The translations under genes were made by a program, and so were the position numbers. From Ornithinimicrobium ciconiae (lineage in GTDB: Bacteria; Actinomycetota; Actinomycetes; Actinomycetales; Dermatophilaceae), in assembly GCF_007197575.1 (NCBI RefSeq), contig NZ_CP041616.1:3968001-4032000 (forward strand): a stretch of 64,000 nucleotides of DNA, in the 5' to 3' direction. Shown here piece by piece: positions 6,703 through 61,955 of the stretch. Position 1 is the stretch's first letter; the number at the start of each line of letters is the position of its first letter. The notes beneath the pieces are model-generated. The model did no database searches and was not told where the DNA came from. It worked only from the letters and a program-made list of their open reading frames with translations.

Positions 6703-6759
6703 CCCATTTTTGGAGGGGTTTCGTCGGCCCGTCCCGCATTTTGGAGGGGTTTCGTCGGG
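6703..6759 (+). repeat. Repeat array DR1 (2 copies, 32-bp spacing)
   Basis: Two copies of CATTTT(T)GGAGGGGTTTCGT, with the CATTTT blocks at 6705 and 6737. Both share the middle GGAGG. The array lies between the regulator (minus) and purD (plus). It belongs to the seven-locus family described in the findings. Confidence 0.85.
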
Positions 6760-6845
6760 TGCCAACGGGCACATTCGAGGAGACTCGGGCCACCAGCCCC
6801 CCGACGATTTGTCCGGCCGAGGCCCGGCCAGACGTCCCGCTGGCT

Positions 6846-6851
6846 TAGTGT
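6846..6851 (+). promoter_or_regulatory. Putative -10 box for leaderless purD transcript
   Basis: TAGTGT six bases before the purD GTG. No ribosome-binding purine run lies between them, which fits a leaderless mRNA. Confidence 0.4.
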
Positions 6852-6857
6852 CGTCAC

Positions 6858-8135
6858 GTGAGGGTTCTCGTCATTGGCTCCGGCGCGCGCGAGCACGCCA
6901 TCGTCCGCTCCCTGGCCGCCGACCCGACCGTGGACGCCGTCCTGGCCGCGCCGGGCAACCCAGGCATCGATCTGGTGGCCCAGTGCCTGCCGGACTGTGG
7001 CCCGATCACCGACCCGGCCGCCATGTCGAAGCTCGCCGAGGACGTCGGCGCCGACCTTGTCATCGTGGGCCCAGAGGCTCCGCTCGTCGCCGGGGTCGCC
7101 GACGCGGTCCGGGCCCGTGGCATCACCTGCTTCGGCCCCAGCGCCGCGGCCGCCGCACTGGAGGGAAGCAAGGCCTTTGCCAAGGAGGTGATGGCCGCCG
7201 CCGGCGTGCCGACCGCCCTGGCTCACGTGTGCACCACCGAGGACGAGGTCATCGCCGCCCTCGACTCCACCGGCGCTCCGTATGTCGTCAAGGACGACGG
7301 TCTCGCCGCCGGCAAGGGGGTCGTGGTCACCGAGGACCACACCGAGGCCGTCGCCCACGCCCTCGCCTGCCTGGCCAAGCCCGACGGCCGGGTCGTGATC
7401 GAGGAGTTCCTTGACGGCCCGGAGATCTCGCTGTTCTGCATCAGCGACGGCACGGAGGTGCGGGCCTTGGTCCCGGCCCAGGACTTCAAACGGATCGGGG
7501 ACGGGGACACCGGACCCAACACCGGAGGCATGGGGGCCTACAGCCCTCTCCCGTGGGCACCGGAGGGGCTGGAGGAGGAGGTTCTCACCCGCATCGCCCA
7601 GCCGACGATCGACGAGATGCGTCGCCGCGGCACCCCGTTCGCCGGCGTCCTGTATGTCGGACTGGCCGTGACCGCACGCGGCCTGCGGGTCGTGGAGTTC
7701 AACGCCCGGTTCGGCGACCCGGAGACCCAGGTGGTGCTGGCCCGACTGCGCACCCCGCTCGGACAGCTGCTGGAGGCGGCCGCCACAGGTCACCTCGCGG
7801 AGCTGCCCGAGCTGTCCTGGCACGCTCAGGCAGCCGTCGCCGTGGTGGTCGCGTGCGAGGGCTACCCACACGCCCCCGTGACCGGCGCGGCCATCGCCGG
7901 CCTGGCGGAGTGCGGCGCCCTTGAACACGTGCAGGTGCTGCACGCCGGGACCGCCGCCTCACCCGAGGGCGTGATCGCCGCCGGCGGGCGGGTGCTCTCG
8001 GTCGTCGGCACCGGCCCCGACCTGGTCAGCGCCCGGGGCCACGCCTACGCCGGGGTGGCAGCGATCCACCTGGTCGGCGGGCAGCACCGCACGGACATCG
8101 CCCAGCGCGCCGCCGAGGGAGCCGTCCTGGGATGA
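6858..8135 (+). CDS. purD: Phosphoribosylamine-glycine ligase
   Basis: Second step of IMP synthesis: ATP-dependent joining of glycine to phosphoribosylamine to give GAR. Its 425 residues match the family length. The N-terminus MRVLVIGSGAREHAIV and the ATP-grasp signature GPNTGGMGAYSP near residue 218 are clear. The start is GTG 6858, preceded by TAGTGT at six bases and no Shine-Dalgarno sequence, suggesting leaderless expression. It is first in a plus-strand purD-purC-purL run. The 64-bp gap to purC is filled by repeat array DR2. Confidence 0.95.
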   Translation: MRVLVIGSGAREHAIVRSLAADPTVDAVLAAPGNPGIDLVAQCLPDCGPITDPAAMSKLAEDVGADLVIVGPEAPLVAGVADAVRARGITCFGPSAAAAALEGSKAFAKEVMAAAGVPTALAHVCTTEDEVIAALDSTGAPYVVKDDGLAAGKGVVVTEDHTEAVAHALACLAKPDGRVVIEEFLDGPEISLFCISDGTEVRALVPAQDFKRIGDGDTGPNTGGMGAYSPLPWAPEGLEEEVLTRIAQPTIDEMRRRGTPFAGVLYVGLAVTARGLRVVEFNARFGDPETQVVLARLRTPLGQLLEAAATGHLAELPELSWHAQAAVAVVVACEGYPHAPVTGAAIAGLAECGALEHVQVLHAGTAASPEGVIAAGGRVLSVVGTGPDLVSARGHAYAGVAAIHLVGGQHRTDIAQRAAEGAVLG

Positions 8136-8136
8136 A

Positions 8137-8193
8137 TCAACAAAACCATTCAGAAAATGCGGGAACCGGCAGCAAAACCACTCGGAAAATGGT
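8137..8193 (-). repeat. Repeat array DR2 (2 copies, 32-bp spacing)
   Basis: Read on the plus strand: ACAAAACCATTCAGAAAATG, then GCAAAACCACTCGGAAAATG, with the AAAATG blocks at 8154 and 8186. It starts right after the purD stop and ends seven bases before the purC GTG, so it forms the entire intergenic spacer. Confidence 0.85.
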
Positions 8194-8199
8194 GAGGCA

Positions 8200-9192
8200 G
8201 TGAGCGAGCAGGAAACCACCGATGGCCTGCCGGGTGAGCTGCCTGGCTACATGCCGGTCTACTCCGGCAAGGTCCGCGAGCTGTTCGCCCCTATCGACCC
8301 CGGCACCGGCCTCGTCGATGAGTCCCGGCTCCTGCTGGTTGCCTCCGACCGCATCTCGGCCTTCGACCACATCATCGATACCCCCATCCCCGACAAGGGC
8401 GCGGTCCTGACCCAGCTCTCGACGTGGTGGTTCGACCAGCTCGCCGACCTCCTGCCCCACCACGTCATCGACGCCGCGGTGCCTCTGCAGGTCGCCGGCC
8501 GGGCGCTCACCGTGCGTCGACTGCGGATGCTTCCGGTGGAGTGCATCGCCCGCGCCTATCTCACCGGTGGTGGGCTCAGCGAGTACCAGGCGACCGGCAC
8601 CGTCAGCGGGGCGGCCCTCCCCGAGGGCCTCGTCGACGGCTCCGCGCTGCCCGAACCGATCTTCACCCCCACCACCAAGGCGCCGGCCGGACAGCACGAC
8701 GAGCCGATGACCTTCGAGGACGTCGAGGACGAGCTGGGCACCGCCCTGGCGAGCCGCGTGCGCGACCTGACTCTCGGCATCCTCGCTCGCGGCAACCAGA
8801 TCGCGGCGGAGCGCGGCATCCTGATCGCCGACACCAAGGTGGAGTATGGCGTGGACCCCCTCTCCCTCGGCCTCACCTCCGTGGACGACGAGATCGACTG
8901 GACCACAGTCGATCCCGACGAGGTGCAGGTGGTCCTGGCCGACGAGGTGCTCACGCCCGACAGCAGTCGCTTCTGGCGGGCCTCGGAGTGGGCACCGGGC
9001 CGCGTGCAGACCTCCTACGACAAGCAGGTGCTGCGAGACTGGCTGCTCTCCGCGACCAGCGGGTGGGACCGCTCCTCGGGCCAGGCTCCCCCGCCGCTGC
9101 CACAGGACGTCATCGAGCTGACCCGGGCCCGCTACATCGAGGCCTACGAGACCCTGACCGGGCAGACGTTCGTGCCCGCCACCCCCGCCTAA
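8200..9192 (+). CDS. purC: SAICAR synthetase
   Basis: Phosphoribosylaminoimidazole-succinocarboxamide synthase: joins aspartate to CAIR with ATP. It has 330 residues, the longer form of the family. Signatures SGKVRELF (about residues 22-29) and SDRISAFD (about 50) are near the N-terminus, with QFIRDxx-type features less obvious. The start is GTG 8200; the weak ribosome site GGTGAGG overlaps the end of repeat array DR2. It lies downstream of purD and 54 bp upstream of purL, probably in one operon. Confidence 0.95.
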   Translation: MSEQETTDGLPGELPGYMPVYSGKVRELFAPIDPGTGLVDESRLLLVASDRISAFDHIIDTPIPDKGAVLTQLSTWWFDQLADLLPHHVIDAAVPLQVAGRALTVRRLRMLPVECIARAYLTGGGLSEYQATGTVSGAALPEGLVDGSALPEPIFTPTTKAPAGQHDEPMTFEDVEDELGTALASRVRDLTLGILARGNQIAAERGILIADTKVEYGVDPLSLGLTSVDDEIDWTTVDPDEVQVVLADEVLTPDSSRFWRASEWAPGRVQTSYDKQVLRDWLLSATSGWDRSSGQAPPPLPQDVIELTRARYIEAYETLTGQTFVPATPA

Positions 9193-21256: not shown

Positions 21257-21442
21257 GCATGGCAGGTTAAGGCCACTGGCAGGCTTATGCCAGAATTTGA
21301 GGATTCTGTGGGGCAGGATCTAACCCGTTGAGCCACACCGCACGGGGACGCGAGGCTCGACTCCACAGGGGGGATGCGGCCGGGGCCGCCGTCTTCGGAC
21401 GGGGCCACCGGCCGCCTCCATGCCCGCTGTTCGGAGAAGTGA

Positions 21443-21534
21443 CCGACGAAACCTCTACCAAATTTCGGGATGGCCCGCCAGCGAAACCACTACCAAATTT
21501 CGGGGTGGACCGGCGAAACCACTACCAAAATGGG
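21443..21534 (-). repeat. Repeat array DR3 (3 copies, 32- and 35-bp spacing)
   Basis: On the plus strand: ACGAAACCTCTACCAAATTT, GCGAAACCACTACCAAATTT, GCGAAACCACTACCAAAATG, with the last blocks starting at 21460, 21495 and 21527. It abuts the stop codon of the DUF3151 gene. This is the only three-copy array and the only one with a 35-bp step. Confidence 0.85.
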
Positions 21535-21957
21535 TCAGAGGCCGAGCTCGCGGGCTGCCTCGGCTGAGGAGTCGCGCAGGAAGTCCGCGCACCGACGCTC
21601 CTCGTCGCTCTCGCCGATCCGGCCGGCGGCCTTCGCCAGGACGGCGAGCGCGCGCAGGAAACCTCGGTTGGGCTGGTGACTCCACGGGATCGGCCCCTGG
21701 CCCTTCCAGCCGGACCGCCGCAGCGAGTCCAGGCCACGGTGATAGCCGGTGCGCGCAAAGGCATAGGCCTCCAGGTCGTCGCCCTCAGAGAGTGCGTGCT
21801 CGGCCAGTTTGGCCCAGGCCAGGCTGGAGGTCGGCTGGGTCGCAGCCACCTCGCGCGGGTCGACTCCCTGCTCGAGCCGCGCCGCAGCTCCGTCCTCCGG
21901 CAGCAGTGTCTCCGGGATGCCCATCAGGTTGGCGCCCGGACCGCTCCCCAGCGTCAC
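21535..21957 (-). CDS. DUF3151 family protein
   Basis: A 140-residue protein of unknown function conserved in actinobacteria, usually next to fba. Recognisable stretches are AWAKLAEHALSEGDDLEAYA, FARTGYHRGLDSLRRSGWKG and PNRGFLRALAVLAKAAGRIG, which suggest a helical, TPR-like fold. The GTG start overlaps the fba stop (GTGA), so translation is coupled to fba. The stop codon is directly followed by repeat array DR3. The role is unknown; the link to aldolase is positional. Confidence 0.8.
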   Translation of the reverse strand: MTLGSGPGANLMGIPETLLPEDGAAARLEQGVDPREVAATQPTSSLAWAKLAEHALSEGDDLEAYAFARTGYHRGLDSLRRSGWKGQGPIPWSHQPNRGFLRALAVLAKAAGRIGESDEERRCADFLRDSSAEAARELGL

Positions 21958-35236: not shown

Positions 35237-38200
35237 ATGGGGTTCTACGCAATGAAGCGTTCTGCTCACGGTGGCCGGCATCTTCTTGCCGCGGTCGCCA
35301 GCGCAGCGTTGGCGGTCTCCGGCCTGAGTGCCGTCGCTGCCACCGCACAGGAAACCGACACTGATCAACCATCCAGCGAGCCGGCACAGATCCAGGAAGC
35401 GGTGCTCACAGAACTGACCAAGAGTGGTGAAGCCACCTTCTGGGTCCACTTTGACGCACGGCCGGACATGAGCCAGTTCGCGCACATCGCGGACTGGGAC
35501 GCGCGAGGCATTGCGGTCTACGACGCGTTGACCAGCACCGCCGACGCCGCACAGGCCGACGTGCGGTCCGAGCTCGACGGCCACGGCCTGAGCTATGAGA
35601 CCTACTGGGCCACCAACGCCATCCTCGTCGAGGATGCCGACGCAGACGTCGTGCAGGACATCGCACGCGCACCCGGAGTCGAGGGCATCTACGGCACGTT
35701 CGCCTACGAGGCCCCCGAGACCAAGCCTGCCGAGAGCGAGCACGCCCTCAATGCGGTCGAGTGGGGCGTGCGGGACATCAACGCCGACGACGCATGGAGC
35801 CAGGGTGTCACGGGCGAGGGCATCGTCGTCGCCAACCTGGACAGTGGCGTCCAGTGGGACCACCCGGCGCTGGTCAACAGCTACCGCGGTTCCAGCGGCG
35901 GCACGGTGACCCACGACTACAACTGGTTCGACGGCACCCCCGACAAGGAGCCGGCTCCGTGGGACTGGGACGGTCACGGCACCCACACGATGGGCACCAT
36001 GGTCGGCAACGACGGCGGCAGCAACCAGATCGGTGTCGCTCCCGGAGCTCAGTGGATGGCCGCTTCAACGGACCTGACCGACGCCTCGATGTTCGCGGCT
36101 GGTGAGTGGTTCCTCGCCCCGACCAAGGTCGACGGCACCGACCCGGACCCCACCATGCGTCCGCACGTCATCAACAACTCCTGGGGCTCCGAACTCCCCT
36201 CGAACGACCCGTTCATGGAGGACATCATCGAGTCCTGGCACGCAGCCGGGACCTTTAGTGTCTTCTCCAACGGGAACGAGGGCCCGGGCTGCGCGACCTC
36301 CGGGTCGCCGGGCAGCCGCATCTTGACCTACTCGGTCGGCAGCTACGACTCCTTCCACTCGATCAGCGGCTTCTCCTCGCGCGGGCCGGGTCAGGACGGC
36401 GAGGTCAAGCCCAACATCTCTGCCCCCGGTAGTGCCGTGCGCTCGTCCTTCCCCGGTGGCCAGTACGGCACCATCAGCGGCACCTCCATGGCCGCCCCGC
36501 ACGTCTCGGGTGCGATCGCACTGCTGTGGTCGGAGAACTCGACCGCCGCCGGCGACGTGGCCGCGACCCGGGCACTGCTCGACGGCTCGGCCATCGACTC
36601 CGAGGACCTGCAGTGCGGAGGCACCGCAGAGAAGAACAACGTCTTCGGTGAGGGCCGTCTCGACGCCTACCAGCTGATCTTCGGCGATGAGCCCCCGGTG
36701 CCGGGTCCGGCCATCACGGTGGACCCGTCCTCGATCGAGAACAGCCAGGAGGCGGACACCACCACCGAGCACACCCTCACGGTCGGCAACACCGGCACGG
36801 AAGACCTCGAGTTCACCATTACTGAGGTCGAGGGTTCCGGTGCGCCTGTCGTGGCGCTGCCGCAGGGCGCGGACCGTTCGCACGCGTCCGCCGAGACCGA
36901 CGGTGGGCCGAGCGCTCCGGCGGTCGTGGAGGCGGCTGAGCAGCTCCAGGCTGTGGCCTCGCTGACGGAGGGCTTCGACGACGTCAACACGCTGCCGGCT
37001 GATGGCTGGGCCATCAAGAACAACAGCGAGCCGGTGGGTGCAACCACGTGGTTCCAGGGCAACGCCGCCGAGGTGTTCCCCTCCCATGAGGGCGCACCAG
37101 AGGCTTATGTCGGTGCCAACTACAACAACGCTGGCGCGTCCCCGGGCAACATCAGCAACTGGCTGATGACCCCGGAGCTGGACCTGGTCAACGGGTCGGA
37201 GTTCTCGTTCTGGACTCGGACCGTCGCCAATCCGGCCGACTTTGTCGACCGGATGGAGGTCCGTCTGTCGACCAGTGGTGCTTCCACCAACGTGGGCACC
37301 GGCTACGACGGTGTGGGTGACTTCGACACCGTCCTGGCGTCGGTGAACCCCGACCTGACCGCCACCGGATACCCGGGTGAGTGGACCGAGTACACGGTGA
37401 GCATCGAGGGTCTGGACGAGGCGACCACCGGTCGGATCGGTTTCCACTACTGGGTGCCCGCGGGTGGCCCGCTGGGTAATAACTCCAACTTCATCGGCGT
37501 TGACACGGTTTCTTACGAGGCTGTTGATGCTCCGCCGCCGGTTCCGGCGTGTGAGGTTGTTGACGCGGCGTGGTTGAGTGTGGACCCGGTCGCGGGCACG
37601 GTTGCCCCGGGTGGTTCGCAGGAGGTCACGGTGGGTCTGGACTCTGCGGGTCTGGCCGAGGGTGAGTACACGGCTGCGCTGTGTGTGGAGTCCAACGACC
37701 CGGTGAACCCGGTGGTGAATGTGCCGGTGACGTTGACCGTCACTGACGATGCCCCGGTCGAGCCTGCCCTGGTGCAGCGCATCAGTGGTGAGAACCGGTA
37801 TGCCACGGCGGCCGAGATCGCTGCTGAGTTCCCCGAGGGTGTGGACACCGTCTACATCGCGAACGGGACCGAGGCTGCTGATGGTGCTGACGCGTTGGCT
37901 GCTGGTGCTGCTGGTGCCAAGGGCGCGTTGGAGTTCATCCCCGATGTCACTCCCGAGGGTGACCCGGCCCCGATCCTGCTGGTGAAGAACAACCAGATCC
38001 CGCAGGCCACGGCCGGCGCCCTGGCTGCGCTGGACCCGGCTGAGATCATCATCATCGGTGGCACCGGCTCGGTCTCGACCGGGGTTGAGGAGACCCTGGG
38101 TGAGTCCGCGGACGTGCGCCGTATCGCGGGTGCTGACCGGTACGAGACCGCGGCGTTGATCGCGGCCGAGTACGGGTCGGTGGAGACGGTCTACGTCGCC

Positions 38201-38737
38201 ACCGGTCAGGGAGACATGGACTCCGGTCTGGCCCTGGCCGACGCGTTGACCGCGGCCTCGCTCGCGGGCTCGGAAGGTTCCCCGGTGGTGCTGACCCGTT
38301 CGGGTAGCCTGCCCGCGGCGACCGCCGAGGTCATCACCGAGCTCGGTGTGGCCAACATCGTGGTCATTGGTGGCACCGGCGCGGTCAGTGATGACGTGCT
38401 GGCCCAGCTCAACGAGCTGGCACCGACCGAGCGGGTCGCTGGCGCGAACCGTTACGAGACGGCAGTGGCGTTGACGGCTGGTTACGGCGCTGACGCGGAC
38501 ATGCTGTACATCGCCTCGGGGACCAACTTCCCCGACGCGCTGTCCGGCTCGTCCCTGACCGGGTCCCAGAGCGCACCACTGCTGCTGACCCGCCAGGACC
38601 ACCTGCCCGCAGCGATCTCTGAGGAGATCCTGCGCCTGAGCCCGCAGGGCATCACGATCTTCGGTGGCACCGTCGCGGTGAACACCGACGTCGAGGCCGA
38701 CCTGCAGGCACTGCTCGACACCACCTCCACCGACTAA
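35237..38737 (+). CDS. Secreted subtilisin-family serine protease with cell-wall-binding repeats
   Basis: A 1166-residue exported protease. A signal peptide (MKRSAHGGRHLLAAVASAAL onwards) ends near ATAQE. The peptidase S8 triad is Asp in NLDSGVQW (near residue 201), His in GHGTHTMG (near 247) and Ser in GTSMAAPHVSG (near 416). A long region with a choice-of-anchor-like domain follows, and three cell-wall-binding type 2 repeats from about residue 845 (SGENRYATA, AGADRYETA, AGANRYETA) anchor it to the envelope. ATG 35237 follows GAGAGGG closely; ATG 35252 is an alternative. A strong terminator follows. It is a paralogue of the protease at 49272. Confidence 0.9.
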   Translation: MGFYAMKRSAHGGRHLLAAVASAALAVSGLSAVAATAQETDTDQPSSEPAQIQEAVLTELTKSGEATFWVHFDARPDMSQFAHIADWDARGIAVYDALTSTADAAQADVRSELDGHGLSYETYWATNAILVEDADADVVQDIARAPGVEGIYGTFAYEAPETKPAESEHALNAVEWGVRDINADDAWSQGVTGEGIVVANLDSGVQWDHPALVNSYRGSSGGTVTHDYNWFDGTPDKEPAPWDWDGHGTHTMGTMVGNDGGSNQIGVAPGAQWMAASTDLTDASMFAAGEWFLAPTKVDGTDPDPTMRPHVINNSWGSELPSNDPFMEDIIESWHAAGTFSVFSNGNEGPGCATSGSPGSRILTYSVGSYDSFHSISGFSSRGPGQDGEVKPNISAPGSAVRSSFPGGQYGTISGTSMAAPHVSGAIALLWSENSTAAGDVAATRALLDGSAIDSEDLQCGGTAEKNNVFGEGRLDAYQLIFGDEPPVPGPAITVDPSSIENSQEADTTTEHTLTVGNTGTEDLEFTITEVEGSGAPVVALPQGADRSHASAETDGGPSAPAVVEAAEQLQAVASLTEGFDDVNTLPADGWAIKNNSEPVGATTWFQGNAAEVFPSHEGAPEAYVGANYNNAGASPGNISNWLMTPELDLVNGSEFSFWTRTVANPADFVDRMEVRLSTSGASTNVGTGYDGVGDFDTVLASVNPDLTATGYPGEWTEYTVSIEGLDEATTGRIGFHYWVPAGGPLGNNSNFIGVDTVSYEAVDAPPPVPACEVVDAAWLSVDPVAGTVAPGGSQEVTVGLDSAGLAEGEYTAALCVESNDPVNPVVNVPVTLTVTDDAPVEPALVQRISGENRYATAAEIAAEFPEGVDTVYIANGTEAADGADALAAGAAGAKGALEFIPDVTPEGDPAPILLVKNNQIPQATAGALAALDPAEIIIIGGTGSVSTGVEETLGESADVRRIAGADRYETAALIAAEYGSVETVYVATGQGDMDSGLALADALTAASLAGSEGSPVVLTRSGSLPAATAEVITELGVANIVVIGGTGAVSDDVLAQLNELAPTERVAGANRYETAVALTAGYGADADMLYIASGTNFPDALSGSSLTGSQSAPLLLTRQDHLPAAISEEILRLSPQGITIFGGTVAVNTDVEADLQALLDTTSTD

Positions 38738-39403: not shown

Positions 39404-39425
39404 GGCTCCGATCCTGCCACCAGCC

Positions 39426-39481
39426 GTACAAAACCTCTCCAAGAATGCGTCGCAGCCCAACCAAACCTTCCCAAAAATGGG
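39426..39481 (-). repeat. Repeat array DR4 (2 copies, 32-bp spacing)
   Basis: On the plus strand: ACAAAACCTCTCCAAGAATG and ACCAAACCTTCCCAAAAATG, with the last blocks at 39442 and 39474. It lies between the HhH-GPD start and the MFS stop. A further partial block, AAGAATGGG at 39501-39509, overlaps the end of the MFS gene. Confidence 0.8.
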
Positions 39482-39498
39482 TAGGCCCGTCCCGGACC

Positions 39499-41307
39499 CT
39501 AAGAATGGGTGGTGTGCCGGACGCGGTGCCAGCCGAGGGCGACGGCAATCAGCGCCGCAGCGAGGGTGGCGATCGCTGCGCCGCCAAAGACCGTCTGCAC
39601 CTGCACCACGGCCGCATCCAGCAGCGCGTCGGAGTCGGTCGGGTCGGCCAGCTCGTTGACCGCCTGCTGGAAGCGGCGCAGTCCCACGGCAGTGAGCAGG
39701 GCCAGTCCGACGACCATCCCGACCATCCGGGCCACGACCACCAGGGAGCTCACGGTCCCGTGCGTCTCGTGCGTGGAGTCGGCGAGGGCCGCGTCGTTGA
39801 CCGGGGCGATCGCCAGGCCGATGCCAAACCCCGCCACCGCCAGCAGGGTGGTGCTCATCCCCGGCTCGTCGAGTGCACCCCGGGTCCACCCAGACATCCC
39901 CCACAGCGCGGCCGCCGTCAGCGCCAGCCCCGGGGCCGCGACCAGCCCCGGCCCGAGCCGCCTGAGCAGGAAACCACCGAGCACCGCACCGACCGGGACC
40001 GCGACGAGGAACTGGATCAGCACGAAGGCGGCCTCGGTCTCGGTGGTCCCCTCCGTGAGCCGGGCGAGCAACGGCACGTCCACGACCACGGCGACGATCG
40101 CGGTGCCGACCAGCAGGCTGACCACCAGGGCCGGGAGCACCTTGCCGTGGACGACACCACGGGCGATCAGCGGGCTGTCCGCCGTGCGCTGCCGGACCGC
40201 GAAGGCCAGGACCGACAGCGCACCGACCGGCAGCAGCCACAACCCCCAGGGTCCGAGCACCTCCTTGGCGGGATCGGCCGAGGAGAAGGTGAGCACGAGA
40301 CTGCCGAGCGCGATCGCGATCAGCAGCGCCCCCAGGACATCAGCGGCCAGGAGCATGGGCAGCCAGCGGGAAGCGGTCAGCACCAGGAGCAGCAGCAGCG
40401 CAGCCATCGCCAGCGCGCCGATCGGGGTCCAGACCCGGGAGGTCGACTCGCCGAATGGCACGAAGGGCTCGCCGTAGGCGACGGACGTGGTCAGCGCCTC
40501 CGGAGCGATCAGCGCCAGGGATGCGGCCACGACGCCCACGATGCCCACGAGCCACGCCAGGACAGTGACCACCCGGCTCCGCGTGCCAGGTCGCCCCGCC
40601 CTCACCTGGCGATCTTCATCCGTATGCCGACCCGAGCCCATCTGGTGGCCCGTCGCCTCATCCGTGCCCCCGTCGAGCTGACCATCCAGGCCGTCGGGGC
40701 GGATCAGCCACACCGCGACGAAGAACACCAGGCCGAGTGCGGCGTTGACCCAGAAGATCCCCCGCCAGTCACTGACCAGCAGGATCGCGGCACCCAGCAG
40801 CGGACCCAGGACCGAGCCGAGTTCCTGCACGGCACCGACGATGCCCAGCGGCATACCCCGTCGTCCCGGCGGCCAGAGGTCGGCCACGATCGCCAGGGTC
40901 GCGGGCACCAGCCCGCCACCACCCAACCCCTGCAGGAAGCGTCCGCCGATCATCACCGGCAGCTCGACGGCGATACCGGTCACCAGTGAGCCGACGACAA
41001 AGATGGCCAGGCAGGCCAGCAGGATCGTGCGCCGGGACATCAGGTCTGCCAACCGGCCGATGAGGGGCAGCACCGCGATATAGCCCAGGAGGAACCCCGA
41101 GATGATGGGGGTGCCCTTCTGCAGCGACTCGATCCCGAGCCCCGCGCCAGCCATCATGTCGGTCAGCGCCAGCACCACGACATAGGTGTCGGCGGCTGCC
41201 AGGGCGACCGCGACGGAGGCGACCGTCAACAGCGACCGGGCACCCCGGGACTTCCCCGCAGGGCTCGACGGATCGTGCCGCTGGGTCACGGCGGGGGTGG
41301 CTCCCAC
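39499..41307 (-). CDS. MFS transporter, partner of LprG-like lipoprotein
   Basis: A 602-residue major-facilitator protein with about 14 membrane segments (DHA2/EmrB-QacA group). The A-like motif GRLADLMSRRTILLACL is near residue 84 and the motif-C region GAVQELGSVLGPLLGA is near 160. The GTG at 41307 begins one base after the stop of the upstream lipoprotein gene. This lipoprotein-MFS arrangement matches mycobacterial lprG-Rv1410c, where the pair moves triacylglycerol and lipoglycans to the outer envelope (established for mycobacteria; inferred here). Sequence alone would also fit drug efflux. Confidence 0.85.
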   Translation of the reverse strand: MGATPAVTQRHDPSSPAGKSRGARSLLTVASVAVALAAADTYVVVLALTDMMAGAGLGIESLQKGTPIISGFLLGYIAVLPLIGRLADLMSRRTILLACLAIFVVGSLVTGIAVELPVMIGGRFLQGLGGGGLVPATLAIVADLWPPGRRGMPLGIVGAVQELGSVLGPLLGAAILLVSDWRGIFWVNAALGLVFFVAVWLIRPDGLDGQLDGGTDEATGHQMGSGRHTDEDRQVRAGRPGTRSRVVTVLAWLVGIVGVVAASLALIAPEALTTSVAYGEPFVPFGESTSRVWTPIGALAMAALLLLLVLTASRWLPMLLAADVLGALLIAIALGSLVLTFSSADPAKEVLGPWGLWLLPVGALSVLAFAVRQRTADSPLIARGVVHGKVLPALVVSLLVGTAIVAVVVDVPLLARLTEGTTETEAAFVLIQFLVAVPVGAVLGGFLLRRLGPGLVAAPGLALTAAALWGMSGWTRGALDEPGMSTTLLAVAGFGIGLAIAPVNDAALADSTHETHGTVSSLVVVARMVGMVVGLALLTAVGLRRFQQAVNELADPTDSDALLDAAVVQVQTVFGGAAIATLAAALIAVALGWHRVRHTTHS

Positions 41308-41308
41308 G

Positions 41309-42126: not shown

Positions 42127-44703
<2,577 letters not shown>

Positions 44704-44720
44704 CGTGTGCCGTCCTCTCC

Positions 44721-44776
44721 CGCATTTTCGTAACGGTTTCGTACGCCCTCCCCGTATTTTCGTAACGGTTTCGTAG
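44721..44776 (+). repeat. Repeat array DR5 (2 copies, 32-bp spacing)
   Basis: Two near-identical copies, CATTTTCGTAACGGTTTCGT and TATTTTCGTAACGGTTTCGT, starting at 44723 and 44755. The array is 17 bp before the clpB ATG, within its 5' leader. Confidence 0.9.
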
Positions 44777-44839
44777 GCGTGCGCGTGGCACGTTGTCCGT
44801 GTCCACGCCGTGAATGTCACTCTGGTCAACCGGGTCAAA

Positions 44840-45283: not shown

Positions 45284-46306
45284 ATGACCACACACCAGAC
45301 TATGCGTGTCTCGCGACGGATGACCGCACGGCTCGCCGGTGCGACCACGCTCGCAGTGGCGGCTGCTGGGCTGGCGATCGCGCCGGCCCACGCGTCCTAC
45401 ACCCCTGAGGTGTGGGACCGGGTGGCCCAGTGCGAGTCGAGCGGCAACTGGCACATCAACACCGGCAACGGCTACTACGGCGGTCTGCAGTTCTGGCACC
45501 CCACCTGGAAGTCCTATGGCGGCCAGGAGTATGCCGGCTACGCTCACCAGGCCAGCAAGGCCGAGCAGATCGCGATCGCGCGCCGCGTGCTGCACACTCA
45601 GGGCCCCGGCGCCTGGCCGGTCTGCTCGGTGCGCGCCGGCCTCACCCGCGACAACGGTGGGGCAGACCCCAACGCTCAGCCCGGCGACGGCGGCAGCGAG
45701 GCGCCCATCGAGGTCACCCGTTATGTCAGCGCCAGCACCGCGGCCAACGTCCGCTCCGGACCCGGCACCGGCTACAGCATCGTGGGATCCAAGGCCCGCG
45801 GCGCGCAGGTCAGTGGCACCCTGAGCAACGGCTGGCTCAAGATCGCCGGCGGGCAGTACATCAGCTCCGTCGTGCTGTCCACCAACCCCGTCGACGGCGG
45901 CGAGAACCCCGGCGAGGTCACCCGCTACGTCAGCGCCAGCACCGCGGCCAACGTCCGCTCCGGACCCGGCACCGGCTACAGCATCGTGGGATCCAAGGCC
46001 CGCGGGGCCCAGGTCACCGGCACCCTGAGCAACGGCTGGCTCAAGATCGCCGGCGGGCAGTACATCAGCTCCGTCGTGCTGTCCACCAACCCCGTCGACG
46101 GCGGCGAGAACCCCGGCGAGGTCACCCGTTATGTCAGCGCCAGCAGCGCGGCCTATGTCCGCTCCGGCCCGAGCGGGGGCTACGGCGTGGTCGACACGGT
46201 CTCGCGCGGGACCAAGGTCACCGGCACGCTCAGCTCCAACGGGTGGCTCAAGATCGGGGCCAACCGGTTTATCGGCCCGTCGGTGCTCTCCAGCACGCCA
46301 GTCTGA
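45284..46306 (+). CDS. Secreted Rpf-like transglycosylase with three SH3 repeats
   Basis: A 340-residue secreted protein. After a signal peptide ending APAHAS, residues 40-115 form a transglycosylase/resuscitation-promoting-factor-like domain (WDRVAQCESSGNWHINTGNG with the catalytic Glu in CESSGNW). Three bacterial SH3 domains follow (YVSASTAANVRSGPGTGYSI). Rpf-type enzymes cut peptidoglycan and help dormant cells resume growth (family knowledge). SH3 copies one and two are almost identical at DNA level with a 204-bp period. The ATG follows AGGAGA. A strong terminator follows the gene. No c-di-AMP riboswitch was recognised upstream. Confidence 0.85.
   Translation: MTTHQTMRVSRRMTARLAGATTLAVAAAGLAIAPAHASYTPEVWDRVAQCESSGNWHINTGNGYYGGLQFWHPTWKSYGGQEYAGYAHQASKAEQIAIARRVLHTQGPGAWPVCSVRAGLTRDNGGADPNAQPGDGGSEAPIEVTRYVSASTAANVRSGPGTGYSIVGSKARGAQVSGTLSNGWLKIAGGQYISSVVLSTNPVDGGENPGEVTRYVSASTAANVRSGPGTGYSIVGSKARGAQVTGTLSNGWLKIAGGQYISSVVLSTNPVDGGENPGEVTRYVSASSAAYVRSGPSGGYGVVDTVSRGTKVTGTLSSNGWLKIGANRFIGPSVLSSTPV
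45710..46303 (+). repeat. Three 204-bp SH3-coding repeats
   Basis: Units start at 45710, 45914 and 46118 with GAGGTCACCCG. Units one and two differ at only a few bases; unit three has diverged in its core. This gives scope for copy-number change by recombination. Confidence 0.9.
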
Positions 46307-49271: not shown

Positions 49272-51699
49272 GTGATTCACAAGAAAGAAACCGCACGCGG
49301 CGCTGTAGTCGCCGTCGCGGGGTTGGGCTTGGCGGTCGGCATGATGCCGGCTCTGAGCGCCAACGCCGCGCCGGAGACCACCGACCGCGACGAAGCGATC
49401 ATCAGCAGCGAGGTCCAGTCGCAGCTCGAGGCGAACGGCACGACTGACGTCTGGCTGTCGCTGGGCGACCAGGCCGACCTGTCTGCCGCTCACAGCATGT
49501 CGTGGGAGGACCGGGGCGACTACGTCTACAACACCCTCCAGGCCCACGCCAAGGAGACCCAGGCCGACCTGCTCGCCGAGCTGGACCGCGCTGGCGTCGA
49601 CTACCAGACCTTCTGGATCAACAACTCCGTCTTCGTCGAGGACGCCTCCGCAGAGCTGGTCAGCTCTGTGTCGTCCGGCGCGGGCGTGGAGCGGATCATC
49701 CCCGAGCTCGTTCCGGAGCTCATCGAGCCCGTCGAGGGCCTTGCGGAGACCTCTCCCAACGCCACCGAGTGGGGCCTTGACGACATCAAGGCTCCCGAGA
49801 TCTGGGACACCTACGACAACCGCGGTGAGGGCATCGTCGTCGGCACGTTCGACACCGGTGTGGACGCCTCGCACCCGGCCCTGGTGAACGCCTACCGCGG
49901 CACCGAGACCGGCAGCGACGACTACAACTGGTTCGACTCCAGCGGAGCCAGCGACACCCCGACCGACCCGCACTGGCACGGCACTCACGTGACCGGCACC
50001 ATGGTCGGTGAGGACGGCGAGAACCAGATCGGTGTCGCCCCCGGCGCCCAGTTCATCGGCACCACCGGCTGCTGCGTCGACGGCGCGGACGTCTTCGCGG
50101 CCTTCGAGTGGTTCGCGGCCCCGACCCGGGTGGACGGCACTGGCGCCGACCCGGACATGCGCCCGCACATCATCAACAACTCCTGGGGCTTCACCGGCTA
50201 CCAGGACTCCGAGCCCGAGCTCATCGCGCTGCTCGACCCGGCCCTTGAGGCCTGGGACGCTGCCGGCATCTTCGGTGTCTTCAGCGCTGGCAACTCCAAC
50301 ATCTCGGTTGACCCGCCGGACCTCGGCCCCTGCGACACCATCTCCAACCCGGCGTGGCACGACGGCGCCCACTACGTGGTCGGCGCCACCGCGCCCGGCC
50401 GCACCATCACCGACTTCTCCAGCCGTGGCCCCGGCCAGGACGGCACGCCGGGCGTTGACATCACCGCCCCGGGCGCTGGCGTCCGTTCCTCGGTGCCCGG
50501 CGGCGAGTACGGCCTGTCCGACGGCACCTCGATGGCTGCACCGCACGTCTCCGGTGCTGTTGCCCTGCTGTGGAGCGAGCACCCGGAGCTGATCGGTGAC
50601 CAGGACGCGACCATCGCGGCCCTCGACGGCGCTGCTGTCGACCAGGCGGACCCGGAGTGCGGCGGCCCCGACTCCAACAACCCGACCTTCGGTGAGGGTG
50701 CTCTGGACCTGGTCGCGCTCTTCGAGTCCCTCGAGGACGAGGAGCCGGCTCCGATGGTCGAGCGTGTCTTCGGCCCGGACCGCTACCGCACCGCTGGTGA
50801 GGTCTCCGAGCTCTACCCCGACGGGGTGGACACCGTCTACGTCACCTCGGGTGAGGGCTTCCCGGACGCGCTGACCGGTTCCTCGGCCGCGGCCCAGGGT
50901 CTGTTCCCCGCTGCGGGCACCATGGAGACCCCGGACGGCGACGCTGCTCCGGTCCTCCTGACCAAGCAGGCCAAGCTCACCAACTCCACCTCGGACTACA
51001 TCTCGACCCTCAACCCGGCCAACATCGTGATCCTGGGTGGCACGGGCACCGTCGGCCAGGTCGTTGAGGACACCCTCAACGACCGCTTCGACGCGACCGT
51101 GAGCCGGGTCGCCGGTGAGAACCGCTACGAGACCGCCGCCGAGCTGGCGTCGATGTTCCCGTCCGAACTCCCGGTCGTGTACGTGGCCTCCGGCATGGAC
51201 GACGCCTACCCCGACGCACTCACCGGTGCGGCGCTGGCGGGCAAGGACGGCGCTCCCGTCCTGCTGACCAAGACCGACTCGGTCCCGGCCGCGACCGCTG
51301 AGGCGCTGGCCGAGCTGAACCCGCAGAGCGTCGTCGTCCTCGGTGGCACCGCCGCCGTGAGCGACGCCGTCGCCACCGAGCTCGGTGCGACCGACCGCCT
51401 CTCCGGCGCGGACCGCTACGAGACCGCGGTGGACGTGTCCAGCAACTACGCGGCTGACGTCTCGGTCGTCTACATCGCCAGCGGCACCGACTAACCCCGA
51501 CGCTTTGTCCAGCTCCGCGCTGGCTGGCTCGGAGGACGTCCCGGTCCTGATCACCCGTCAGGACAAGCTGCCGAACTCCATCGTGGCCGAGCTCAACCGG
51601 CTCTCGCCGGAGCGCGTGGTCATCGTCGGTGGCACCGGTGCTGTCTCCCAGGGCGTTGAGGACCGCCTCAACGAGCTCTACCCGGGCTGGATCGGCTGA
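49272..51699 (+). pseudogene. Secreted subtilisin-family protease, frameshifted in the last cell-wall-binding repeat
   Basis: Signal peptide (AVVAVAGLGLAVGMMPALSA), an inhibitor-I9-like region, peptidase S8 with Asp in FDTGVDASHP (near 193), His in HWHGTHVTG (near 236) and Ser in GTSMAAPHVSG (near 419). Cell-wall-binding repeats begin near residues 497, 611 and 707. The frame stops at 51494 inside the third repeat (YIASGTD-stop). The missing half, DALSSSALAGSEDVPVLITR onward, continues in the next frame to 51699. Deleting one A at 51493-51494 restores an 808-residue protein. The catalytic domain is intact, so the truncated form may still act but could anchor less well. Confidence 0.8.
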
Positions 51700-52349: not shown

Positions 52350-53354
52350 TCACTGCTGAGCCTGGCGGAGCAGCTCCGCACGTGGGTCGGTGCCCTCTTC
52401 CTCGGCGGCGAGCAGCTCGACGGCCTCACGGGCCTTGTCGGTGAGCCGCTGCGGGACGATGATGCTGACCTTGGCGAGGAGGTCACCGGTGGCACTCTTG
52501 GTCGAGATGCCACGACCCTTGACGCGCAACACCCGTCCGGACGGGGTGCCAGGGGCCACCTTGACCCGGACCGTGCCGCCGTCGAGCGTGGGCACCTGGA
52601 CCGTGGCCCCGAGCGCCGCCTCCGCAAACGTGACCGGCAGGTCGACGGTCACGTTGTTGCCGTCCCGTCCAAAGACGGGATGCGGGCGCACCGAGACCAC
52701 CAGCATGAGGTCTCCCTGGGGCGCGCCCGGGTCGCCAGCCATCCCCTTGCCACGCAGCCGGATCTTCTGGCCGTCCTTGACGCCGGCGGGAATGCGCGTG
52801 GTGATGTGTCCACCCTCGGGGGTCTGGAGGGTGACCGTGTCTCCGGTCGCGGCCTGCATGAAGTCGATCGTGGTGCGGGCCTCGACGTCCCGGCCGCGAC
52901 GCGGTCCGCGGGTGGCACCGAACGGTGAGCCCCCGGCATACTGACCGCCGCCACCAAACCCACCGAGGAGGTCATCGAGGTTGATGCCCTGTCCCCCGGA
53001 GGTGCTGAACCGGGTGCCGCCACCGCCCCCTCCGCCGCCGAACATCTGGGCAAAGACGTCCTCGAAGCCCGCGCCGCCCCCTGCCCCGGGTCCGCCGGCG
53101 GTGAACCGCGCACCGCCACGCGACATGGCGCGGACGGCGTCATACTGCTTGCGCTGCTCCGGGTCGGACAGTACCGCGTAGGCCTCGCCGATCTCCTTGA
53201 ACTTCTTCTCCGCCGCGGCATCACCTGGTTTGGCGTCCGGGTGCCACTCGCGGGCGAGTTTGCGGTAGGTCTTCTTGATGTCCTTGTCGCTGGCGTCCGC
53301 GGGCACACCGAGGATCGCGTAGAAGTCCTTTTCGAACCAGTCCTGACTGGCCAT
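52350..53354 (-). CDS. dnaJ: DnaJ-type co-chaperone without zinc finger
   Basis: A 334-residue J-protein. The J domain is at residues 5-75 with HPD in [10 protein letters not shown] Gly/Phe-rich linker ([18 protein letters not shown]) is followed by the two C-terminal beta domains ([20 protein letters not shown]). It has no cysteine, so the CxxCxGxG zinc finger of classical DnaJ is absent; this is the type B (CbpA/DnaJB-like) form. It stimulates DnaK ATPase. The start is ATG 53354 with GGAGGTGAGG upstream. Repeat array DR6 and a hairpin separate it from grpE. Confidence 0.9.
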
Positions 53355-53367
53355 GTGTTCCTCACCT

Positions 53368-53423
53368 CCCATTTTCCGAGTGGTTTTGCTGCCGCCACCC
53401 GCATTTTCCGAGTGGTTTTGCTG
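53368..53423 (+). repeat. Repeat array DR6 (2 identical copies, 32-bp spacing)
   Basis: CATTTTCCGAGTGGTTTTGC at 53370 and 53402, identical over at least 22 bases. The array lies just before the dnaJ ribosome site, in the dnaJ leader. The middle sequence equals that of one copy in DR2. Confidence 0.9.
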
Positions 53424-53476
53424 CTCGTATGCCGAACCCGCACCGGCCGCGTGCCACTCCAGGGGGACAGGGGGCC

Positions 53477-53512: not shown

Positions 53513-54189
53513 TCATGCCGGGTCTGCCACCGCAACGCGCGCAGCGCGCACCACGCGGTCGCCGACCTTGAAGCCCGGCTGCATGACCTGGACGATCGTC
53601 GTCTCGGTCGCGCCCTCGGGCAGGTCGGCCTCGGGCAGGTGCATCAGGGCCTCGTGGACGGCGGGGTCGAAGACCTCACCGACGGCACCGAGGCGCTCCA
53701 CCCCGAACCGGCCCAGCGTGGCCTCGAGCTTCTCCGCGATGGCGAGCAGGGGCCCTTCGGCGAGTTCCCCGTGCTCTTTGGCCATGTGCAGGTCGTCCAG
53801 GACCGGCAACAGGGCTTCCACCACGGTGGCGGCTCCGGTCTCTCGGTCCCGAGCGCGGTCGCGGTCAACGCGCCGCTTGTAGTTGACGTACTCAGCCTGG
53901 AGGCGGCGCAGGTCCTCAAGCCGGTCCGCCGCGAGCTGGGTGTCGGGGTGCTCCCCGTCTCCCTCCGCGGCCGGAGCCTCGTCCTGTCCGTCTCCGGGCA
54001 GCGCCTGCCCGACGTCGCCGGCAAAGGCGTTGTCGTCTCCGCCTGCCACCTCGGGCTCCTCGGCAGCTGGCGCGACCGGCTCGCGGACCTGACCGGTCTC
54101 TGGATCCAGTCGTCGCTTGTCCCGGATCACCGGGCCGGTGGGGCCGTCGGACTCACCGTCCCACGGCCCACCGGCACCGGTGCGTTCCG

Positions 54190-54193
<4 letters not shown>
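53513..54193 (-). CDS. grpE: Nucleotide exchange factor GrpE
   Basis: A 226-residue GrpE. A long acidic, disordered N-terminus leads into the dimerisation helix ([20 protein letters not shown]) and the C-terminal beta domain ([20 protein letters not shown]). It releases ADP from DnaK. The GTG start overlaps the dnaK stop (GTGA), so it is translationally coupled. A strong hairpin follows the stop. Confidence 0.95.
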
Positions 54194-57565: not shown

Positions 57566-57566
57566 C

Positions 57567-59532: not shown

Positions 59533-59569
59533 CGTCCTTCCTCGGCGCAGCAGCCACGCTCTCACCGCG

Positions 59570-59575: not shown

Positions 59576-59582
59576 GGAGACC

Positions 59583-59810
59583 ATGAGCAAGCACCTGGAG
59601 GTCCCGATCCGGGACGAGTCGATCCGCCTCGGTCAGCTGCTCAAGCTCGCCGGGGTGGTGCAGGACGGCGCGATGGCCCGCATGGTCATCGAGAACGGCG
59701 AGGTCACTGTGGACGGCGAAACCGTGATGCGCCGCGGCATCCAGATCCGTCCCGGCGCTGTCGTCTCGTATGCCGGCGAGTCCATCCTGGTGACCGGCTC
59801 GCCTGAGTGA
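59583..59810 (+). CDS. S4-domain RNA-binding protein (RlbA/YaaA-like)
   Basis: A 75-residue small protein formed entirely of an S4 fold: SIRLGQLLKLAGVVQDGAMA, MVIENGEVTVDGETVMRRGI, QIRPGAVVSY. Such proteins bind rRNA or tRNA; the function of this small group is unclear. The start is ATG 59583. A near-palindromic sequence lies downstream. It is not obviously linked to its neighbours. Confidence 0.85.
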   Translation: MSKHLEVPIRDESIRLGQLLKLAGVVQDGAMARMVIENGEVTVDGETVMRRGIQIRPGAVVSYAGESILVTGSPE

Positions 59811-59838
59811 TCGTTGGGCCGGTCAGGTCCCAGTCAGT

Positions 59839-59878
59839 GGGGTGCAGAAGCGGTCACCGGTGACCGACTTTGCACCCC
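59839..59878. other. 40-bp near-palindrome downstream of the S4 gene
   Basis: GGGGTGCA (59839-59846) pairs with TGCACCCC (59871-59878). The centre CGGTCACCGGTGACCG is a perfect palindrome. It could be a terminator, although the palindromic centre leaves no loop, or a dimer-binding operator. Confidence 0.6.
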
Positions 59879-59879
59879 A

Positions 59880-60010
59880 GTCTCCGGCTACCACCACGAC
59901 AGGTCGTCCCCTCCACCACCTCGCGATCCCCGGCGGTCACCTGTTCCTCGAGCGCAACCCCGCCGTCGTGCAGCGCGGCCAGGGCGGCGCCTCACGGGGA
60001 AACCCACTTT
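59880..60010 (+). pseudogene. Possible remnant of a hydrolase/thioesterase C-terminus
   Basis: One plus-strand frame reads RPLHHLAIPGGHLFLERNPA, which resembles the His-containing end of type II thioesterases or other alpha/beta-hydrolases (PGGH-F-L). There is no start and no body. The gap to the response regulator otherwise holds nothing recognised. Confidence 0.3.
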
Positions 60011-60018
60011 CCTGCCCG

Positions 60019-60651
60019 TCAGAGCAGCCCGCGCTCCCGGGCCGCGGTGACCGCACCCGTGCGGTTGTCGACGCCGAGCTTGTCATAGGCGTGCACCAGG
60101 TGGGTCTTGACCGTCGCCTCGCTGACAAACAGCTCCTTGGCGATCGCTCGGTTGCCGGCGCCCTGTGCCACCAACCGGAGCACCTCGAACTCACGTGGGG
60201 TCAGGGCCGGCTCGGCCGGTGCCCGCATCCGGCTCACCAGTCGTTGCGCCAGGCCACTGGCCAGCACCGTCTCCCCACGCGCGGCGGCGGCCACAGCGTC
60301 CGCGATCGTCTCCGGCGAGGCGTCCTTGAGCAGATAGCCGGAGGCACCCGCCTCGACCGCCCGCACGATGTCGGTGTCGTGGTCATAGGTGGTCAGGATC
60401 AGCACGGCCGGGGCCTGCTCGCCGGCCCCGCCCGTCAGGATGCGGGTCGTGGCGCTCACGCCATCCATCCCCTCCCCCAGGTTGAGGTCCATCAGCACCA
60501 CATCAGGGGTCAGCCGCGGCACTAGTGCGAGCGCCTGCTCCCCGGAGGCCGCCTCACCCACCACCTCGACGCGACCGGTGGCCTCCAGCACCGCCCGCAA
60601 CCCGGAACGCACGACGGGGTGGTCATCGACCAGCAGCACCCGCACACTCAT
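60019..60651 (-). CDS. LuxR/NarL-type response regulator
   Basis: A 210-residue response regulator: receiver domain with VRVLLVDDHPVVRSGLRAVL and phospho-Asp in DVVLMDLNLGEGMDG, the switch VLILTTYDHDTDIV, then a LuxR HTH (LTPREFEVLRLVAQGAGNRA and VSEATVKTHLVHAYDKLGVD). ATG 60651 with GGAGG seven bases upstream is preferred over GTG 60687, which overlaps the kinase stop. It is downstream of its kinase. Targets unknown; the nearby exporter operon is a candidate by position. Confidence 0.9.
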   Translation of the reverse strand: MSVRVLLVDDHPVVRSGLRAVLEATGRVEVVGEAASGEQALALVPRLTPDVVLMDLNLGEGMDGVSATTRILTGGAGEQAPAVLILTTYDHDTDIVRAVEAGASGYLLKDASPETIADAVAAAARGETVLASGLAQRLVSRMRAPAEPALTPREFEVLRLVAQGAGNRAIAKELFVSEATVKTHLVHAYDKLGVDNRTGAVTAARERGLL

Positions 60652-60683
60652 CTCCGCACCTCCATCCGTGCCCGGCCGTCCGC

Positions 60684-61877
60684 TCACGGACGCCCGCCCC
60701 GGTCGTGCGCGGCCACGTCGGCGGCCAGCGGCAGGTGGGCTCCGAGTACGGTGCCGTCACCGGCAGCGGACTCGAGGACGAGGTCACCGCCGAGGTCACG
60801 CAACCGCTCCCGCATCGAGCGCAGGCCATACCCTCCACGTGCCGCAGGCAACGGCGCTGCCTCCTCCCAGTCCGTCACATCAAACCCCTGTCCGTCATCA
60901 GCCACGTCCAGTCGCACCTGCTCCGGCGCAGTCGTGAGCGTGACCATGACACGAGTGGCTCCGGAGTGCTGGCGCACATTGGCCAGGGCGCTCTGGGCCA
61001 CCCGCAGCAGAGCGACCTCCTGCGCCGTGGCGAGCGGTGCCACCGGACCATCGGCGGTGAAGTGCGCCTCGATGCCGGTCTCCTGCGACAGGCTGCCGAC
61101 CAGTCGGGACAGGGCAGCCGACAGTCCGGACCCCTCCAGCGCCGCCGGCGTCAGGGCGTTGACCACCCGTCGTGACTCTTCCAGGTTCTCCCCGGCCGTC
61201 TCCTCGATCTGCTTCAGGAGGGTGTGCAACTGGGCGAGGTCGTCGCGCTGGGCCCCGGCCCGCGCCAGCAGCAGGATCGAGGAGAAGCCCTGCGCGAGGG
61301 TGTCGTGGATGTCGCGGGAGAGGCGGGTCCGTTCGGCCAGGGCGCCGCTCTCCCGTTGGGTGCGGGTGAGGTCGTCGTGCAGCACCACCATCTCCTCCTG
61401 GGTGGCAACCAACCGATCGACGAGGTGCTGCCGTTCGACCGCCTCCCGGGCCAGGAGCTGCTCTCCGCGGGAGACACCCAGGGCGACCAGTGCCCCGATG
61501 GCCGGGCCGAGCACCGCCCCGGCCGGGTGCGTGCCCAGGTCCAGCTGGACGAGCACGACGACCGCCAGGACGAGCACCGAATAGGCCACCGCCAGCGGGA
61601 AGGCCATCAGGTGCACGGCCAGCATCCAGAGCACAAAGGCCGCCCAGGAAAAGTCCGGTGAGACCAGCACCAGCCCGCCCCACAGGAGGGTGAGCACCAC
61701 CAGCCACCACGGCCCCGCCCCCGCGGTGACGAACGTGGCCCGCCAGGCGGTCCCCGCGACATACCAGCCGGCCGTGATCAGGACCAGCGGGACCAGCCAC
61801 CGCAGGTCGGCCCCGGAGCCGACCGCGCGCACCGTCCCGATCGCCAGCAGCAACGCAAACAAGGCGTGCCGACCCAT
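60684..61877 (-). CDS. Two-component sensor histidine kinase (NarL/DesK type)
   Basis: A 397-residue sensor: about five to six membrane segments in the first 150 residues, a coiled-coil, a HisKA_3 domain with RLSRDIHDTLAQGFSSILLL (phospho-His in DIHD), and a HATPase_c domain with VADDGQGFDV and GGYGLRSMRERL. The stimulus is unknown. ATG 61877 is preceded by repeat array DR7. It is co-transcribed with the response regulator. Confidence 0.85.
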   Translation of the reverse strand: MGRHALFALLLAIGTVRAVGSGADLRWLVPLVLITAGWYVAGTAWRATFVTAGAGPWWLVVLTLLWGGLVLVSPDFSWAAFVLWMLAVHLMAFPLAVAYSVLVLAVVVLVQLDLGTHPAGAVLGPAIGALVALGVSRGEQLLAREAVERQHLVDRLVATQEEMVVLHDDLTRTQRESGALAERTRLSRDIHDTLAQGFSSILLLARAGAQRDDLAQLHTLLKQIEETAGENLEESRRVVNALTPAALEGSGLSAALSRLVGSLSQETGIEAHFTADGPVAPLATAQEVALLRVAQSALANVRQHSGATRVMVTLTTAPEQVRLDVADDGQGFDVTDWEEAAPLPAARGGYGLRSMRERLRDLGGDLVLESAAGDGTVLGAHLPLAADVAAHDRGGRP

Positions 61878-61898
61878 GGCGAGCAGCCTCGTGACCCC

Positions 61899-61955
61899 AC
61901 CATTTGTGGGGAGGTTTGGAACGCTTCCTGCGCCTTTTTGGGCAGGAATGGTCCG
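61899..61955 (+). repeat. Repeat array DR7 (1 clear and 1 degenerate copy, 32-bp spacing)
   Basis: CATTTGTGGGGAGGTTTGGA at 61901 and CCTTTTTGGGCAGGAATGGT at 61933. The second has lost the GGTTT core but keeps the 32-bp register. It lies directly before the histidine kinase start, in its leader. Confidence 0.65.

Follow-up and report, generated by a model that had tools for sequence, protein, structure and literature searches.

Mycobacterial interspersed repetitive units (MIRU) are direct repeats of an actinobacterium, with units of about 50–100 bp, some of which lie at overlapping stop–start codon pairs. Repetitive extragenic palindromes and bacterial interspersed mosaic elements (REP/BIME) form many dispersed extragenic copies with regular spacing and species-specific sequence, and roles in termination and chromosome organization have been suggested for them (PMC2817692). 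The TAACTGA repeats of Beggiatoaceae are heptamers found just upstream of start codons as direct-repeat sets of two to six, in well over a hundred intergenic places and with no known binding factor (PMC4679880), while the accessible part of a report on the long tandemly repeated repetitive (LTRR) sequences of heterocystous cyanobacteria describes tandem intergenic repeats, with neither stop-codon anchoring nor a fixed helical step (PMC2408588). The present analysis concerns a family of tandem direct repeats, here termed arrays, in a 64,000-nucleotide stretch of Ornithinimicrobium ciconiae (contig NZ_CP041616.1, positions 3,968,001–4,032,000; hereafter the window) and in the remainder of its genome, a single contig of 4,092,907 bases designated G000. 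The arrays share dispersal, regular spacing and species-specific sequence with REP/BIME, which are the closest known elements in behaviour. In contrast, three features that define REP/BIME are missing here: the unit is not a palindromic hairpin, showing neither a palindrome nor RNA folding in G000; the cognate Y1/RAYT transposase occurs in 0 of 31 genomes; and the copies do not alternate in orientation but are direct repeats, outward-facing pairs consisting of two separate arrays. As with MIRU, the arrays are direct repeats and some occupy overlapping stop–start pairs such as purD–purC, although they differ from MIRU as usually described in having 32-bp units, mostly placed after opposite-strand stops, and lineage-specific cores. 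The arrays share the tandem intergenic form with both the Beggiatoaceae sets and the LTRR, but the Beggiatoaceae heptamers contrast with their 27-bp cores, three-turn step and location mostly after stops. A literature search, mostly of papers outside subscription, found no description of such a layout.

The exact pattern AAACC-N-YT-NNN-AAAATG (AAACCNYTNNNAAAATG) occurs 69 times in G000 against 0 for its reversed control, and a longer pattern allowing up to 2 mismatches identifies 201 sites, again against 0. The array statistics for G000 rest on fetched stretches holding 179 of the 201 sites. These stretches contain 79 arrays, comprising 44 with two copies, 28 with three, 6 with four and a sole single-copy array, which is followed at 32 bp by a T-tract variant copy. 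The step is 32 bp in 111 of 118 cases, the remainder being 31, 33, 35, 37 or 38 bp. The initial annotation had allowed that a genome scan might reveal evenly spread spacings or a motif no commoner than its composition predicts, and neither was observed. The logo describes a unit of approximately GRCCTACG-AAACC-N-CT-NNN-AAAATG-SGKG plus a few free spacer bases; within its middle, positions 5 and 8 are correlated, as are positions 9 and 10. In three end copies AAAAT is changed to TTTTT, suggesting that the A/T tract rather than its exact letters may be what counts. The proposal that the middles are matched within a locus holds throughout the genome, with an agreement at the four variable middle positions of 0.629 between neighbouring copies versus 0.377 between arrays, and of 0.517 versus 0.353 in the spacer. 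The highest identity between different G000 arrays is 0.915 over 59 bp, and this comparison revealed no recent jump from one locus to another. RNA folding of the 79 arrays gave mean z values of -0.28 on one strand and -0.22 on the other, with 7 of 79 arrays below -2 in each case, and neither RNA structure beyond composition nor a U run after a stem was found in G000 arrays. Replichore polarity (27/13 and 22/17) shows no clear bias, with the origin assumed at position 1.

The arrays display a marked preference for the ends of genes, gene sense running opposite to the motif in the form given by the initial annotation. In G000, 47 of the 79 arrays begin close to the end of a stop codon (from 12 bp upstream to 40 bp downstream of it), and for 30 of these the distance is 1–3 bp; 13 others precede a start codon by no more than 60 bp, 10 fall inside open reading frames (ORFs) and 9 elsewhere. 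Many are positioned between convergent genes, some precede the clpB, dnaJ and purC starts, and the functions of the flanking genes are mixed. Neighbouring array pairs follow the order gene–array–array–gene in 14 of 14 cases (5, 3 and 6 in three genomes, with two of the pairs in the congener G012 overlapping in coordinates) and the opposite order in 0. The gene-proximal copy is distinct in G000, carrying T at position 15 with a frequency of 0.94 versus 0.60 and G at position 17 with 0.89, where the other copies have C with 0.77; this difference recurs in G014 and is weaker in G009. Capped genes end in TAA in 16 of 48 cases, versus 39 of 374 for all called genes including the capped ones (Fisher p = 8e-5). 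In 10 of 11 ORF-internal arrays examined the motif runs in the coding direction, and three such arrays separate Pfam domains (EIIA/HPr, maltokinase cap/GlgB and AAA/amidohydrolase). The core is retained in ORF-internal arrays where the adjacent linker fails to align. Because 32 is not divisible by 3 and the copies fall in different frames, this core is probably not maintained for its protein sequence.

Two congeners without the G000 motif display the same layout in unrelated sequences. G012, which lacks the G000 motif, has its own tandem repeats with a 33-bp step, whose core with up to 2 mismatches matches 33 sites in G012 versus 4 in the control; most other congeners are near control, with G002 (17 versus 6) and G004 (14 versus 6) above it. 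The fetched stretches of G012 contain 22 arrays, with steps of 33 bp in 54 of 63 cases and 32 bp in 7, and 16 of the 22 follow a stop codon. Among 12 further congeners scanned for any step of 20 to 60 bp, G001 has 32-bp repeats with a core found 146 times versus 0 in the control and 0–17 times in other congeners, most often in G013 (17 versus 1). In the fetched G001 stretches the 33 arrays have steps of 32 bp in 80 of 85 cases and 33 bp in 4, and 20 of the 33 lie after stops. Similarity within/between arrays is 0.736/0.628, 0.738/0.639 and 0.797/0.677 in the three families. Thus step and placement persist across lineages while the sequence is replaced. The gap between a hairpin and purD, a place chosen for inspection, carries arrays in G000, G012 and G001. 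Further places shared by G000 and G001 are the grpE–dnaJ gap, the end of an SdhB-like gene and two more convergent gene pairs, with the G001 array at one shared locus capping the other gene of the pair, and G000 and G012 share one convergent pair plus another matched on one flank only. For base rates of 2%, 8% and 15%, the chance of the G001 overlap (4 of 20 regions) is p = 0.0006, 0.07 and 0.35, and that of the G012 overlap (2 of 15, one single-flank) is p = 0.035, 0.34 and 0.68. The purD-locus scan went upstream in locus orientation, so minus-strand loci showed the other side. In a genome from another genus (G082), a 32-bp repeat at the purD site was rejected as local, with 2 adjacent matches and 1 in the control. 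After stops at a few loci of G006, G021 and G026 (L287, L292), palindromic CCACCGCGGTGG repeats were observed with a step of 38 bp.

In the window, the originally reported pattern with up to 2 mismatches matches 12 sites versus 0 in 100 shuffles. A weight matrix built from the genome's own copies yields 14 window copies with scores of at least 11, and the reversed window yields 0 at scores of at least 10. The copies lie at 6702/6733, 44720/44752, 53367/53399 and 61898 on the minus strand and at 8135/8167, 21441/21476/21508 and 39423/39455 on the plus strand. The arrays and their neighbours are as follows.

6641..6690, plus strand: C-run-loop hairpin read from the sequence, with the array 6702–6760 coming next
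6702..6760, minus strand: two-copy array in the hairpin–purD gap, from the weight matrix; also in G009 and G019, and with own families in G012 and G001
6858..8135, plus strand: purD-like gene, from sequence and synteny
8135..8194, plus strand: two-copy array between the purD stop and the purC start, from the weight matrix; four copies in G009
8200..9192, plus strand: purC (SAICAR synthetase)
21441..21535, plus strand: three-copy array directly after the opposite-strand DUF3151 stop; arrays in G018 and G007 but not in G009
21535..21957, minus strand: array-capped DUF3151 gene
39423..39482, plus strand: two-copy array about 17 bp after the stop of a major facilitator superfamily (MFS) gene, from the weight matrix
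39499–41307, minus strand: MFS gene
42127–44703, minus strand: clpB-like gene
44720..44779, minus strand: two-copy array just before the clpB-like start, from the weight matrix
52350..53354, minus strand: dnaJ
53367..53426, minus strand: two-copy array between the grpE stop and the dnaJ start, beside the ribosome-binding site, from the weight matrix
53513..54193, minus strand: grpE
60684–61877, minus strand: histidine kinase gene
61898..61925, minus strand: degenerate AACCTCCCC-variant copy before the histidine kinase gene, from the weight matrix

The fifteen copies of the initial annotation are hence reduced to 14, in six clear arrays and one degenerate site. Its statement that all seven loci hold at least two copies applies to the six arrays and fails at 61898, a weak AACCTCCCC-type variant with a score of 17 whose second copy is below threshold. 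The claimed 32-bp pair at every locus likewise fails only there; at 6702/6733, where one A is missing, the step is 32 bp measured from AAACC and 31 bp from the ATG end. The one 35-bp step reported for the third locus was recovered (21441/21476), and all other window steps are 32 bp. The grpE–dnaJ gap also carries arrays in G009 and G007 and an array of a different family in G001. C-run hairpins occupy the same place in several congeners as the hairpin at 6641..6690, which by eye resembles the actinobacterial 6C RNA; Rfam gave no 6C match at E ≤ 1 for the hairpin upstream of purD, and two C-run-loop hairpins are visible there at 6615–6690. Elsewhere the window holds two related genes for subtilases that carry cell wall binding 2 repeats (35402–38737 and 49341–51494), three 204-bp tandem repeats within a transglycosylase-SH3 gene (45685–46296) and three 57-bp coding repeats (31720–31899).

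The G000 motif was found in 7 of 58 genomes, that is in 7 of 31 congeners and in 0 of 27 other genomes. Copies are many in G000, G009, G014, G018 and G023, two in G007 and one in G019, and these seven genomes also have the highest purD identity (84–100%), followed by G012 with 77%. The AAACC...AAAATG motif is limited to one clade of the genus. In genome contigs the pair pattern matched 8 stretches, belonging to Ornithinimicrobium sp. F0845 (1), the metagenome-assembled genome (MAG) AS06 (6) and a Ruminococcus MAG (1), the last being an unrelated AT-rich duplication. A phage or plasmid origin was rejected: the strict pair pattern had 0 matches in viral contigs, and one array was unmatched in plasmid and phage records.

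The comparison of orthologous sites that the initial annotation proposed gave a mixed answer, with arrays shared at some loci and absent at others. Within fetched stretches, both flanks match a same-orientation G000 array for 13 of 28 arrays in G009 and 13 of 28 in G014, one of the latter (L196) being doubtful as it was read as empty in a second comparison. Stretches syntenic with the window, chosen without regard to arrays, contain three arrays in G009, two in G007, one in G018 and one in G019, and all 7 (multi-copy or strong) lie where G000 has one. G018 has one extra weak single match elsewhere, and the stretches of G014 and G012 hold no array of the G000 motif. The array is absent from the purD–purC gap of G007, G014, G012, G018 and G019, and the array position 21441 is devoid of one in G009. 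Numbers for empty sites are few because interpolation of syntenic places in G009 mostly missed the intended loci, and the array counts of that comparison are biased, most stretches having been picked for holding arrays. Agreement of the variable letters between G000 and G009 is 0.444 for orthologous and 0.413 for non-orthologous arrays, against 0.651 within G009; the corresponding values for G014 are 0.485, 0.443 and 0.508. The excess of orthologous over non-orthologous similarity is not significant (p = 0.10 and 0.11), and the variable letters track species, not locus. Other repeats were noticed in these regions. In G018 (L151/L193) the purD–purC gap, which holds an array in G000, is occupied by an unlike tandem repeat of 24 bp; upstream of purD, G018 carries a longer repeat whose ends are of the CGTGTGGGATTTGG type, and G014 (L185, ~5823) has a similar piece; and G007 (L186, 19239) has palindromic 22-bp tandem repeats that are CGACCACTGAGTGGTCCAGC-like.

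On these sequence comparisons, the arrays can tentatively be interpreted as helix-phased tandem sites for a putative fast-evolving factor at the ends of transcription units. Such a factor would be sequence-specific, would bind the tandem sites, presumably in DNA rather than RNA, and would act at transcription-unit ends, two or more sites being required in helical phase (32 bp corresponds to about three turns). New copies would be made by local tandem duplication, the preference of the factor would maintain core and step, and a shift of that preference between lineages would lead to the rewriting of gene-end arrays with step and placement unchanged. The suggestion of paired sites for one protein made in the initial annotation agrees with the three-turn step, the rarity of single copies in G000 (1 of 79 arrays), the lack of RNA folding and the retention of the core at shared positions; stop-codon anchoring, clade restriction and the unrelated families of identical layout in relatives formed no part of it. 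Several observations weigh against a factor acting at transcript ends, and against paired sites in particular the single copies that make up 8 of 28 G009 arrays at scores of at least 14. No factor was found, gene content not having been compared genome-wide, and "transcript end" fails to cover the 13 of 79 arrays before starts and the 10 of 79 inside ORFs, as judged with simple gene calls made for this analysis. In G009 and G014, roughly half of the arrays have no G000 counterpart that matches on both flanks. The search for other families yielded only two: apart from G001, 11 congeners scanned over 20–40 kb each lacked a clear 32–33 bp array, and the step of the few repeats in G006, G021 and G026 is 38 bp. 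The like steps could, moreover, stem from common descent and not function. A wider proposal, which is rather doubtful, is a system ruled by geometry rather than sequence, in which a conserved factor with fast-changing specificity would require three-turn direct repeats at gene ends and the arrays there would be rewritten whenever that specificity shifts; if true, there would be at least three sequence versions, or "dialects", within one genus.

A possible if somewhat doubtful alternative is a selfish interspersed repeat, REP/BIME- or MIRU-like, whose spread would depend on a putative enzyme and whose presence at gene ends and in protein linkers would be tolerated; on this explanation, which is held with the same reserve, the species-specific sequences would follow the enzyme. 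It accords with presence and absence at orthologous sites such as purD–purC, with the tolerated DNA that is occupied (intergenic regions, overlapping stop–start pairs and interdomain linkers), with letters that match species, and with the finding that REPs coevolve with their transposases, both being species-specific (PMC2817692). However, PF01797 (Y1/RAYT) was detected in 0 of 31 genomes and in 5 of 14 control genomes, and a reverse transcriptase occurs in G000 alone among the array-bearing genomes, so that RAYT and reverse transcriptase are unsupported as mobilizers and no known mobilizer was found among these candidates. Near-identical arrays were not seen, no clear target duplication was evident by eye at empty sites, and the conserved difference between gene-proximal and other copies is likewise at odds with a selfish repeat. 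The related idea of an element copying itself locally, also raised in the initial annotation, is favoured by the locus-matched middles and spacers but not by the modest best identity between arrays or the absence of Y1/RAYT from the 31 congeners. A reverse transcriptase gene is located at G000:C1:10470-11105, near the array at 8072.

Elements acting in RNA at termination or 3' ends, for instance cores that resemble pause sites alternating with C-rich stretches for Rho loading, appear unlikely. They would fit the position of arrays behind stop codons and the outward-facing array pairs of convergent genes, as well as the C/G frequencies in gene sense, which are 0.60/0.14 in the 20 bp before the array and 0.52/0.21 in the linkers of G012, and 0.60/0.15 and 0.60/0.13 in G001; after the stops of array-free genes the values are 0.40/0.37 and 0.39/0.39. 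Nevertheless, the asymmetry is weak in G000 (linker C/G 0.42/0.33), hairpins are absent from G000 (mean z -0.28) and scarce in G012 (-0.93), ORF-internal and pre-start arrays are oriented the other way, and AAAA is flipped to TTTT in some end copies. The C-rich, G-poor gene-sense DNA of G012 and G001 would be compatible with an RNA-level role in termination. An intrinsic terminator was rejected, there being neither folding beyond composition nor a stem with a U run behind it. That the arrays are operators in an ordinary transcription factor regulon is very improbable: some arrays do precede the clpB, dnaJ and purC starts, but 47 of 79 follow stops versus 13 before starts, many lie between convergent genes and gene functions are mixed, a placement that rules such a regulon out as far as gene positions, rather than mapped promoters, can tell. 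Neutral tandem repeats generated by slippage would account for the locus-matched spacers, yet they are just as implausible, being refuted by a single core shared by 79 dispersed loci with 0 in the control.

Hairpin terminators are few in actinobacteria, and the arrays may show how actinobacterial gene ends are marked. Bacterial interspersed repeats are usually defined by their sequence and transposase, whereas here spacing and placement recur and the sequence is exchanged. The same layout in other sequences in two relatives hints at an undescribed, fast-changing gene-end system. If this is true, the arrays would provide a rare natural series for following how the specificity of DNA binding changes together with the hundreds of sites it recognizes.

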